A program made the position numbers and the translations under genes. This document shows, one piece after another, positions 12,050 to 61,061 of a stretch of 64,000 nucleotides of DNA. The notes under the pieces are model-generated. The model saw only the letters and a list, made by a program, of their open reading frames with translations, searched no databases and was not told where the DNA came from. Positions within the stretch are counted from its first letter, which is position 1. Each line of letters starts with the position of its first letter. This stretch comes from Caulobacter hibisci (GTDB taxonomy: Bacteria; Pseudomonadota; Alphaproteobacteria; Caulobacterales; Caulobacteraceae). The DNA is taken from contig NZ_JADWOX010000002.1 of NCBI RefSeq assembly GCF_016135805.1, positions 434,001 to 498,000 on the forward strand. Reading direction: 5' to 3'.

Positions 12050-14377
12050 ATGATCCAAGCCGTGTCGAACCATCGGGGCGACGTCCGCCGCCTCAGAGCC
12101 GCCTTGCTCGCCGCCAGCGTTCTTGGCGTGGCGACGCCCGCCCTGGCCGCCGAGCCCGACCCGGATCCCGCCGAGGTCGAGGCCGTGGTCGTCACTGGCC
12201 GGCGGGTTTCGGAGGCCAGCGTGGCCATCGGCACCGACCAGGCCACGGCCACCGTCTCGATCACCCGCGACGCGCTGCTCTCGGCCCCGGCCGGGGTGAC
12301 CGGCCTGAAGATGCTGGAGAGCTTGCCGGGCTTCAACGTCCAGGCCAATGACGCCCTGGGCATGTACGAGTTTGGCAACTCGGTGTCGGTGCGGGCCTTC
12401 AACTTCCAGCAGATCGGCTTCCTGCTCGACGGCATCCCGATGGGCCGCAGCGACCAGTTCGGCGGCAGCCCGATCTATCGCTATGTCGACAACGAGAACC
12501 TGGGGCGTGTGCAGGCCTCGGCCGGGGCCGGCGACGTCTCCCTGCCCAGCTACGCCTCGCTGGGACCGATCGTCGACTACTTCACCAAGACGCCCGACGT
12601 CGACGCCGGTGGCTCGATCAGCCAGACCCTGGGCGAGGACAATCTTCGTCGCAGCTTCCTGCGCCTCGAAAGCGGCAAGATCGGCAATCTGTCGGGCTAT
12701 GTCGCCGGATCGTGGATCAAGGGCGACCTGTGGCGCGGCCCAGGCTTCATCAAGCGCGAGCACTACGAGGGCAAGGTCGACTACGCCTTCGAGAGCGGCG
12801 GGAACCTGACGTTCCAGACCGTGCACAACGATTATTACGACTACGACTCCCCGTCGATCACCAAGGCCCAGTACCTGGGAACCACCCCCACGCCCGACAC
12901 CTTCGGGCGCAAGGGCCGCGACTTCGCCTATCTCGGCTATGTGCCGCTGCTTGCGGAGACCACCGCCGGGGTGAAGTATTCGAACGCGGCTTACAACCAG
13001 TACTACAAGTTCGCGGTCAACGCCCGGCAGGACCACCTGTACGGCCTGTCGCTGAACAAGCCGATCGGCGAGGCCTTCGAGATCCGCTCGACGGCCTATT
13101 ACGAGGACAAGGGCGGCTACGGCGTCTCGCCCGAGGCCTATTCGGTCTCCAAGACCAGCTACGACAACGAGAAGGCCTATGTCTCGGGTCTAACCGCGCC
13201 CAAGGGCCTGCAATACGGCCTCTCGGGCGTCGACGGCATCCGCAAGGGCGTCACGGTCGGCGGGACCTGGCGGACGGGCGTCCACACCGTCCAGGCCGGC
13301 GTCTGGCTGGAGAAGGACGACTACCACCGCACCCAGGCGCGCTATAATACCGTCAATGGCGACCCGGACGGGGTGCCGCTGCTCAACGAACCGGTGCACC
13401 TGCAGCGCAACTACGTCTCGACCCGCGAGACCACCCAGTTCTTCCTCAAGGAGACCGTCAAGCTATTCGACGAGCGCTTGAAGGTCGAGCTCGGCTTCAA
13501 GTCCACCGACATCGACTACAAGATCAGCGGCTACCGCAACCCGGCCGACTACATCGCCCAGCGCAGGCCGACGATCACCGACAACTGGAAGGACGGCTTC
13601 CTGCCGCAGGTGGGGCTGGTCTATTCGATCAACAGCCGCGACCAGGTGTTCACCTCCTATTCGGAGAACCTGGCCCTGCCGCGCGGCGCCGATGACATCT
13701 TCTCGGCCGCCAGCCCGACCGTGCCCGGTCCCGAGCCGGAAACCTCGCAGAACCTCGAGGTGGGCTATCGCGCCAACCGCGCGACCTTCAACGCCTCGGC
13801 CGTGATCTACTACACCGCCTTCGACAACCGGCTGCAGTCCTACGCCTCGGTGGTGCCGGGCAGCACGACGACCGAAACCTTTTACCAGAACGTCGGGGCC
13901 GTGGAGGCGCACGGGGCCGAATTCAGCGGTCAGTGGAAGCCCGAGCTCTTGGGCGGCAAGATCTATTTCAACGCCAACCTGTCGTACAACCGCGCCGAGT
14001 TCGAGAACAACTTCGGGACCAACGCCATCGCCGGCAACACGCTGCCCGACTTCCCGACCTGGCTGTTCCAGAGCGGGGTGACCTGGGAGCCGGTCGACTG
14101 GGCCGTGGTCAACGTCTCGGCCCGCCACCTCAGCGACCGCTACACCAACATGACCAACACCGAGAAGACCGACGGCTACACGGTCTGGAACGCCTATGTG
14201 GATCTCGGCGACGGCTTCGGCGTCGGGCCGCTGAAGCAGGTCAAGGCCCGCGTCAACGTCGACAACATCTTCGACGAGGACTACCTGGGCACGATCACTA
14301 CCACGGTCAGCACCGCCGCCACCTTCCGGCCCGGCTCGCACCGGACCTTCCAGGTGACGCTGTCGGCCGACTTTTAG
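12050..14377 (+). CDS. TonB-dependent outer-membrane receptor
   Basis: The 775-residue product has a signal peptide (cleavage near ALAA), a TonB box-like EVEAVVVTGRR at about residue 44, and a plug domain with FLLDGIPMGRSDQFGG. A long beta-barrel ends in the typical terminal phenylalanine (LSADF). Such receptors import scarce ligands across the outer membrane using TonB energy. The ligand is unknown; its end overlaps the convergent oxidoreductase gene by four bases, and the biotin genes follow. GGGGA before the ATG supports the start. Confidence 0.93.
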   Translation: MIQAVSNHRGDVRRLRAALLAASVLGVATPALAAEPDPDPAEVEAVVVTGRRVSEASVAIGTDQATATVSITRDALLSAPAGVTGLKMLESLPGFNVQANDALGMYEFGNSVSVRAFNFQQIGFLLDGIPMGRSDQFGGSPIYRYVDNENLGRVQASAGAGDVSLPSYASLGPIVDYFTKTPDVDAGGSISQTLGEDNLRRSFLRLESGKIGNLSGYVAGSWIKGDLWRGPGFIKREHYEGKVDYAFESGGNLTFQTVHNDYYDYDSPSITKAQYLGTTPTPDTFGRKGRDFAYLGYVPLLAETTAGVKYSNAAYNQYYKFAVNARQDHLYGLSLNKPIGEAFEIRSTAYYEDKGGYGVSPEAYSVSKTSYDNEKAYVSGLTAPKGLQYGLSGVDGIRKGVTVGGTWRTGVHTVQAGVWLEKDDYHRTQARYNTVNGDPDGVPLLNEPVHLQRNYVSTRETTQFFLKETVKLFDERLKVELGFKSTDIDYKISGYRNPADYIAQRRPTITDNWKDGFLPQVGLVYSINSRDQVFTSYSENLALPRGADDIFSAASPTVPGPEPETSQNLEVGYRANRATFNASAVIYYTAFDNRLQSYASVVPGSTTTETFYQNVGAVEAHGAEFSGQWKPELLGGKIYFNANLSYNRAEFENNFGTNAIAGNTLPDFPTWLFQSGVTWEPVDWAVVNVSARHLSDRYTNMTNTEKTDGYTVWNAYVDLGDGFGVGPLKQVKARVNVDNIFDEDYLGTITTTVSTAATFRPGSHRTFQVTLSADF

Positions 14378-49352: not shown

Positions 49353-50270
49353 TCAGCCCCCGATCGCGTCCATCTCGAACGGCGTGGTCTGGTAGACTTC
49401 GTTGAGCCAGTTGGCGAATAGCAGGTGGGCGTGGCTGCGCCAGCGGTTGCGGGGCGCGCGGGTCGGGTCGTCCCCCGGGAAGTAGTGGGCCGGCGGCGGC
49501 GTGGTCGGGTCGATCAGGCTGTCGCGGGCGTATTCGGCCGCCAGGGTGCCGGTCTCGTATTCCGGATGGTTGAACATGTATAGCCAGCGGCGGCGGATGT
49601 CCTCGAGCAGGCACAGGCCCGATTCCTCGGACTCGAGCAGCACGCGCAGGGAGCCATCGGCCGGCAGGTCCTCGGGCCGCACCTCGGTCCAGCGCGACAC
49701 CGGAATGTCGATCTCGTCGGCCAGGCCGCGTAGATAGGGCGAGGCCGGTTCGAGATTGGCGTGCGGAAAGACGCCGGAGCATTTTTTCGAGAGCACATGC
49801 TTGGGCACGCCGTGGAAGTGCCTCACGCCGGCCTGGGCGCCCCAGCACACCGCCAGACCCGCATGCACGTGGGTCTGGGTCCAGTCGAAGATCTGGGTCA
49901 GCTCGTCCCAGTAGCCGACCTCCTCGAAGGCCAGGGTCTCGACCGGCGCGCCGGTGACGATCAGCCCGTCGAAGCGCTCGCCCTTCACCTCTTCCCAGGG
50001 GCGATAGAAGGCCAGCATGTGCTCGGCCGAGGTGGTCTTGGGCGAATGGCTGGACAGCTGGATCAGCGACAGCTCCACCTGCAGCGGGCTGGCGCCCAGC
50101 AGACGCGCGAAGTGCCGCTCGGTGGCCGGCTTGTCGGGCATCAGGTTCAAGAGGCCGATGCGCAAGGGGCGGATGTCCTGGCGGGCGGCTTCGGTGTCGG
50201 CCATCAGCGACAGGCCTTCGGCTTCCAGCAGGGCGCGGGCCGGCAGGTTGTCGGGAATCTTGATGGGCAT
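49353..50270 (-). CDS. metA: Homoserine O-acyltransferase MetA (predicted acetyl-CoA type)
   Basis: The 305-residue enzyme starts MPIKIPDNLPARALLEAEGL. The acyl-enzyme cysteine is in AGLAVCWGAQAG (about residue 142), and the catalytic His/Glu are in LYMFNHPEYETGT. Residue 111 is glutamate in GLIVTGAPVETLAFEEV, where E. coli succinyltransferases carry glycine; this residue was shown to decide acyl-CoA choice in the family, so the acetyl donor is more likely here. It begins methionine synthesis. Its mRNA leader is highly structured (50303-50416). Confidence 0.93.
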   Translation of the reverse strand: MPIKIPDNLPARALLEAEGLSLMADTEAARQDIRPLRIGLLNLMPDKPATERHFARLLGASPLQVELSLIQLSSHSPKTTSAEHMLAFYRPWEEVKGERFDGLIVTGAPVETLAFEEVGYWDELTQIFDWTQTHVHAGLAVCWGAQAGVRHFHGVPKHVLSKKCSGVFPHANLEPASPYLRGLADEIDIPVSRWTEVRPEDLPADGSLRVLLESEESGLCLLEDIRRRWLYMFNHPEYETGTLAAEYARDSLIDPTTPPPAHYFPGDDPTRAPRNRWRSHAHLLFANWLNEVYQTTPFEMDAIGG

Positions 50271-50302
50271 GGCTTGCGTCCGTCCGTCAGAAAACAAGAC
50301 TC

Positions 50303-50416
50303 GGGACGGCTTTAGGGGTCACCCGTTTCGTTGCCGTCTCGGCCGCATCCCCCCGACGGGGCGCCACCTTGCTCGGGAAGCAGGTTGGCGTTGGGCGAGC
50401 CCAACTCTTGATGCAG
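50303..50416 (-). promoter_or_regulatory. Candidate SAM-sensing riboswitch (SAM-I-like reduced form) of metA
   Basis: In the mRNA, stem P1 pairs CTGCATC (50416-50410) with GATGCGG (50349-50343). Inside lie AAGAG, a hairpin at 50405-50390 (GTTGGG-CTCG-CCCAAC), an 11-position stem at 50389-50363 whose ends read GCCAACC and GGTGGC, and CCCC-GTC-GGGG at 50361-50351. AAGAG and the CAACC/GGTG pair are characters of SAM-I class aptamers, but the usual long P2 is missing. Downstream, GACGGC (50338-50333) can pair either with an upstream GCCG or a later GCCGTC (50310-50305), a possible switch. Class and ligand are inferred. Confidence 0.5.
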
Positions 50417-50488
50417 GGGCGGCTTTAACGGCGCCGCTCTCCGATCGCAAGAGGACGTGGCGTCGCGGTCGCTGGACGGAGAGGGGCG

Positions 50489-50665
50489 TCAGGCCTCCAG
50501 GCGGTGCAGCACGATCTCGGCCCGCACGCCCTCGTCGAAAAGCCGGCTGCCATAGTCGAGCGCGGCCTGGAACGAGCGTTGCTCAGGCAGGTCGTTGAAC
50601 AGCACCCGCTGATCGCAGGTGACTTCCCATCCGGCCTCGGTCTCGGTGACCTCGATCGTCCGCAT
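50489..50665 (-). CDS. Small 58-residue protein of unknown function
   Basis: A 58-codon frame starts at ATG 50665 (MRTIEVTETEAGWEVTCDQR) and ends at 50489. It contains LPEQRSFQAALDYGSRLFDE, then IVLHRLEA. The composition and codon bias are those of a real gene, and the sequence looks like a small alpha/beta protein. I cannot name a family. It lies just upstream of the metA leader on the same strand and could share a transcript or end before it. Confidence 0.65.
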   Translation of the reverse strand: MRTIEVTETEAGWEVTCDQRVLFNDLPEQRSFQAALDYGSRLFDEGVRAEIVLHRLEA

Positions 50666-50969
50666 ACGCTGCTCTCCACGCTCACGGCGCAGTTAACCAT
50701 CGCTGGGTGGAATGGTTGCGTGCGAATCCACGAGAATTCAAGCGCGACGTCCGTGCGCTGAAGAATCCGAATTGGGGGAGGGGGAAGAGGGGAAAACCGG
50801 CCCGGGCGTCAGTCGGGGGGGCAAGGCCCGGGCCGGTTTAATGTCTCGTGGCTATGCGCTCGACGGGACACGAGGAAAACGACGATGCCGCCGGGCGGTT
50901 CCGCGTCTGGTGAAAATTCTTCGTCGAGACTTCAAATCTCCCGCGACCACGGCTAAGGCTCGCCCCGTC
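50666..50969. other. Intergenic region with several hairpins ahead of tRNA-Leu
   Basis: No protein gene is supported in this 304-bp stretch. It contains an AACCAT/ATGGTT repeat near 50696, a strong terminator-like hairpin at 50794-50839 and a CTCGTG/CACGAG repeat at 50844-50875. A promoter for the tRNA should lie in the last part. Confidence 0.4.
50794..50839 (+). terminator. Strong hairpin, possible small-RNA terminator
   Basis: A perfect 14-bp stem (50794-50807 with 50826-50839) has an 18-base G-rich loop and ends in TTT. No gene ends just before it on either strand, so it may end an unannotated small RNA. Confidence 0.45.
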
Positions 50970-51054
50970 GCGGATGTGGCGGAACTGGTAGACGCACTGG
51001 ATTTAGGTTCCAGCGCCGAGAGGCGTGGAGGTTCGAGTCCTCTCATCCGCACCA
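50970..51054 (+). tRNA. tRNA-Leu (anticodon UAG)
   Basis: An 85-nt tRNA of class II shape: acceptor GCGGATG pairs with CATCCGC, the loop TTTAGGT gives anticodon UAG, a long variable arm (CGCCGAGAGGCG) is present, the T-arm is GGTTCGAGTCC, and CCA is encoded. It reads CUN leucine codons. Confidence 0.95.
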
Positions 51055-60986: not shown

Positions 60987-61061
60987 GGGCGGTTAGCTCA
61001 GCGGTAGAGCGTCTCGTTTACACCGAGAGGGTCGGGGGTTCGATCCCCTCACCGCCCACCA
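60987..61061 (+). tRNA. tRNA-Val (anticodon UAC)
   Basis: A 75-nt tRNA: acceptor GGGCGGT pairs with ACCGCCC, the anticodon loop TTTACAC gives UAC, the T-arm is GGGGTTCGATCCCC and CCA is encoded. Confidence 0.96.

Follow-up and report, generated by a model that had tools for sequence, protein, structure and literature searches.

The metA locus and its leader

The window analysed here, a 64-kb (64,000-nucleotide) stretch of the Caulobacter hibisci genome, carries on its minus strand metA, encoding a homoserine O-acyltransferase, and, ahead of it, a structured leader whose 3' end lies 46 nucleotides from the metA start codon (Table 1). The metA product matched Pfam PF04204 with 404.5 bits and NCBIfam NF047918 with 420.8 bits, below the cut-off of the latter (460.5); the acetyl and succinyl MetA models of NCBIfam both matched it below their cut-offs. 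Two tRNA genes are encoded on the plus strand of the window (50970-51051 and 60987-61058).

The leader was matched by the Rfam model RF01725 (SAM-I-IV) from 50419 to 50317, over model positions 1-99 of 99, scoring 58.3 bits against a gathering threshold of 41.1 (cmscan; E = 5e-7 for the whole window and 5.5e-9 for the local stretch 50000-50700). Across the 5.57-Mb genome this model had no other match at E <= 0.001 (E = 1e-8 for the leader); neither RF00162 (SAM-I) nor RF00634 (SAM-IV) matched the genome at that threshold. The original prediction, made from the sequence alone, was thus right that a structured, SAM-I-related leader precedes metA, and the covariance-model search that it had suggested, with RF01725 among the models, returned the class. 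SAM-II (RF00521), whose fold differs from that of SAM-I/IV, had been judged a poor fit; its model gave no match above gathering in the window and was absent from the list of matches with E <= 10 for 50000-50700, from which one lower-scoring clan overlap (unnamed) was omitted, and SAM-II was rejected. SAM-II (SAM_alpha) also precedes metA in some alphaproteobacteria, according to the part of PMC4239095 that deals with it.

Table 1 Features of the metA leader, in coordinates of the window.
Feature	Coordinates	Strand	Evidence
metA, homoserine O-acyltransferase (HTS family), ATG start	49353..50270	-	Pfam, NCBIfam
SAM-I/IV aptamer (RF01725)	50317..50419	-	cmscan
P1 5' strand GCAUC	50410..50414	-	Rfam alignment
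P2 hairpin, UUGGG-CUCG-CCCAA plus outer G-C	50390..50405	-	Rfam alignment, segmentation, pairing tests
P3 hairpin, core CCAACC...AGGUGGC	50363..50389	-	Rfam alignment, segmentation
PK2 5' strand CCCG, P3 loop	50374..50377	-	Covariation tests
P4 hairpin CCCC-GUCG-GGGG	50350..50361	-	Sequence; unpaired in Rfam model
P1 3' strand GAUGC	50345..50349	-	Rfam alignment
P5 hairpin GCCGAGACGGC	50333..50343	-	Rfam alignment, re-cut pairing test
PK2 3' strand CGGG, downstream of P5	50322..50325	-	Covariation tests
GCCGUC, candidate alternative partner of P5 3' arm GACGGC (50333-50338)	50305..50310	-	Partition function; weak comparison
GGACGG before metA start, candidate partner of CCGUCC (50304-50309) in folded aptamer	50280..50285	-	p = 0.29

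Architecture of the aptamer

P1 of the aptamer has 5 bp in the Rfam model and is followed by AAGAG; the 7-bp closing stem proposed originally would have to draw on bases that precede P1 and on others within or adjoining P5. Three internal hairpins had been described, and P2, P3 and P4 are all present: P2 is, as predicted, a continuous 6-bp hairpin with a tetraloop and neither internal loop nor kink-turn, P3 carries the expected CAACC and GGUGGC elements, and P4 has only 4 bp in this leader (CCCC/GGGG). A fourth hairpin, P5, had been overlooked. It is followed by AACGAAA and then by CGGG, the partner of the P3-loop CCCG in PK2; the prediction was correct that the SAM-I pseudoknot is missing and had missed PK2.

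What sets the leader apart from SAM-I has been published as characteristic of SAM-I/IV. According to Weinberg 2010 (PMC2864571) and PMC6890682, P2 of this class is undivided and has no internal loop, PK-1 is absent and a P4 hairpin is present; the latter (Zhang et al. 2019), in its comparison with SAM-IV, gives for SAM-I/IV an unsplit P2, a missing PK-1 and the presence of P4. RNA-Puzzles III (PMC5393176) gives the sequence of the SAM-I/IV RNA crystallised as 4L81 and labels its P5 and PK2; compared by eye, that sequence has its parts in the same order as the metA leader and shares with it AACGAA after P5. Given the full-model match to RF01725, the lack of matches to RF00162 and RF00634 at E <= 0.001 and the presence of these published features, the leader is assigned to SAM-I/IV both in class and in architecture. 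It resembles the class in P1, the undivided P2, P3 (CAACC...GGUG), P4, P5 and PK2, differs from it only in sequence details and loop sizes, and is a chromosomal example from Caulobacteraceae; as an ordinary representative of a known, crystallised class it is no new kind of switch. The original SAM-I/IV structure paper is reportedly that of Trausch in 2014.

The leader had first been read as a SAM-I aptamer of a minimal or variant form not yet described, a reading that draws on the AAGAG, CAACC and GGUGG motifs common to SAM-I, and the leader does share with RF00162 the P1/P3 core and the P4 hairpin. It lacks, however, the P2 kink-turn or internal loop and the P2-loop pseudoknot of SAM-I, and has instead P5 and PK2, which typify SAM-I/IV and SAM-IV but not SAM-I in the parts of PMC5393176 and PMC6890682 that treat them. 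As RF01725 scored far above gathering and RF00162 found nothing in the genome at E <= 0.001, a SAM-I variant is contradicted and was rejected as highly improbable. Membership of SAM-IV, which would account for P5 and PK2 (both present in SAM-IV according to the portion of PMC6890682 concerned), is more improbable still and was likewise rejected, since the leader has a P4, no P2a/P2b split and a 4-nt P2 loop too small for the SAM-IV PK-1, and RF00634 did not match the genome at E <= 0.001.

The metA of this genome is thereby assigned a SAM sensor of known type, which settles the question raised by the original prediction, and leaders that look like SAM-I without a kink-turn should be compared with RF01725 before novelty is claimed. 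In the open-licence literature retrievable under SAM-I-IV or RF01725 (the spelling with a slash is unsearchable), no title dealt with metA of Caulobacteraceae.

Covariation in related aptamers

RF01725 matches were found in 42 of 199 Caulobacteraceae genomes, all of them above gathering (the search filters may lose weak matches). Full-length MetA, defined as a match of more than 360 bits, was found in 17 of these 199 genomes, and the riboswitch lies just upstream of 15 of the 17 genes; the two without it (G053, G088) encode the lowest-scoring MetA proteins of the 17.

The aptamers compared were taken from 48 model matches and 80 of at least 119 genome stretches that fitted a pattern. The pattern loci were chosen by their core motifs and not individually scored with RF01725, so that conservation of these motifs in them is by construction. 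Eight loci were not segmentable (G036, G030, G084, L050, L064, L090, L103, L113); two of these, L064 and L103, have by eye the appearance of true SAM-I. Segmentation, which required at least four of five P1 pairs and three P5 pairs, gave 45 aptamers from the family and 75 from named genomes. After removal of two mis-segmented loci (L051, L101) and of two judged to duplicate G075 and G029 (L094, L104), and collapse of six repeats, 110 distinct aptamers remained (40 family, 70 named). Relatives inflate covariation tests, and the set was therefore thinned until all members were less than 80, 75 or 70% alike, which left 51, 36 and 23 aptamers, respectively.

P2, P5 and PK2 exceeded their shuffled controls in the 110 aptamers. 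Depending on the position, P2 is paired in 77 to 109 of the 110; at the five inner positions none of 1000 column shuffles reached the observed pairing, and at the outer pair 44 of 1000 did. After thinning, most P2 positions, though not all, remained significant: the innermost pair was weak (39, 140 and 12 of 1000 shuffles reached the observed value with 51, 36 and 23 aptamers, respectively), and in the smallest subset 77 of 1000 did so at the fourth pair. The score of PK2 was reached by 0 of 300 permutations in the whole set and by none of 500 in any of the thinned subsets, and its strands change in step (CCCG/CGGG, UCCG/CGGA, UCCCA/UGGGA and others). A P4 stem of at least 4 bp forms in 74% of the aptamers versus 33% of shuffled segments. 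The first-pass pairing of P5 (110 of 110 at positions 1-3) was forced by the cutting rule; when P5 was re-cut with no pairing demanded, positions 1 to 4 paired in 110, 105, 107 and 74 of the 110 aptamers, and 0 of 1000 shuffles reached the observed values at positions 2-4, position 1 being invariant. The outer pair of P1 forms in 98 of 110, a count that is biased because the rule demanded P1 pairs and, as P1 also varies little, is not a strong test.

Proposed control of metA

SAM would be held by the SAM-I-type core, that is by P1 and P3 with AAGAG, CAACC and GGUGG, in an aptamer closed by P5 and by PK2; its binding would stabilise P1, P5 and PK2 and lower metA expression. From the riboswitch class we infer that the metA leader binds SAM, and the role of the gene suggests that plentiful SAM most likely represses it. 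That the metA mRNA leader is a SAM-I/IV riboswitch is in our judgement almost certain. Repression would most likely act by masking the start region, which lies about 60 nucleotides beyond P5: by eye the leader shows no clear U-tract terminator, so translational control is favoured.

The original prediction had also proposed mutually exclusive pairings of GACGGC, here the 3' arm of P5. The pairing with GCCGUC exists and dominates the unconstrained fold, with a probability of about 0.9 in RNAfold; in the same model, which includes neither pseudoknot nor ligand, P1 and the CCGUCC/GGACGG helix each reach about 0.08. These modelled values would fit a three-way switch, and the GACGGC/GCCGUC pairing is a possible switch element, although weakly supported by comparison. 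One tentative scheme, which we think may well be wrong, places the switch in P5 and not in P1: in the absence of SAM GACGGC would pair with GCCGUC, and with SAM bound P5 and PK2 would free GCCGUCC to pair with GGACGG, blocking translation.

When the P1b-P5-PK2 strand was paired with the spacer, the duplexes averaged -17.3 kcal/mol, no better than dinucleotide shuffles (-18.4), and were among the best 5% in 2 of 110 leaders; nor were they better than those with swapped partners, which gave a mean of -17.7 kcal/mol, the own partner being the better one in 47 of 110. In 16 metA leaders of Caulobacteraceae the loop and 3' arm of P5 find a partner of 4-8 bp, with p values of 0.11 in the window, 0.006 in G142 and 0.004 in G086 and above 0.4 in eight of the 16; 115 of 2000 permutations of the partners attained the observed sum, and the Fisher value of 0.0016, which treats relatives as independent, was not relied on. 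The anti-start helix was not significant, either in the window (p = 0.29) or in the leader with the lowest value of the 16 (p = 0.067). Spacer hairpins had z values from -1.9 to +1.5 in the 16 leaders (-1.1 in the window) and from -2.2 to -4.3 in five metA leaders of other groups (L065, L073, L084, L088, L115).

This failure of the comparison to reveal switching helices, together with the lack by eye of a strong Shine-Dalgarno sequence before the metA ATG, would fit a decayed or non-functional riboswitch. Against such decay, the core is intact and several relatives in the genus keep a near-identical aptamer before metA, with a varying spacer, and we regard it as very improbable. These metA leaders, near-constant in the aptamer and varied in the spacer, offer a natural set for studying how SAM-I/IV controls expression.

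Genes and subtypes at other SAM-I/IV loci

The open reading frames (ORFs) that follow SAM-I/IV aptamers elsewhere encode, among others, a Cys/Met PLP enzyme, a homoserine dehydrogenase and a MetX-like protein. The largest group of downstream ORFs (37 of 111, two being repeats of the same locus) encodes a PLP enzyme with the beta-eliminating lyase fold (among others G029, G042, G098, L108, L109 and L122); PF01212 was found in the one member scanned, and another was matched by the NCBIfam low-specificity threonine aldolase model far below its cut-off. A literature search combining riboswitch, threonine aldolase and S-adenosylmethionine gave no title on SAM control of the PLP enzyme. An ORF of about 100 amino acids follows SAM-I/IV at eight loci of the family (G012, G014, G114, G119, G137, G149, G005b, G142b); the one tested, that of G005b, had no Pfam or NCBIfam match.

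A divergent SAM-I/IV subtype without P4 (GTCAAGAAGGGCA...) was observed at L038 (G030), L046 (G084) and L031 (G036), its pattern occurring in 3 of the 199 family genomes; a related exact pattern matched no viral contig. By eye, the possible downstream strand of PK2 in this subtype appears to be the Shine-Dalgarno sequence itself (AGAAGGAG in G030). In G036 (contig C24) two RF01725 matches of different subtypes, 12143-12251 and 12375-12473 (L031), follow one another on one strand, separated by 123 nt, and precede an ORF that by eye resembles an AAA+ ATPase.
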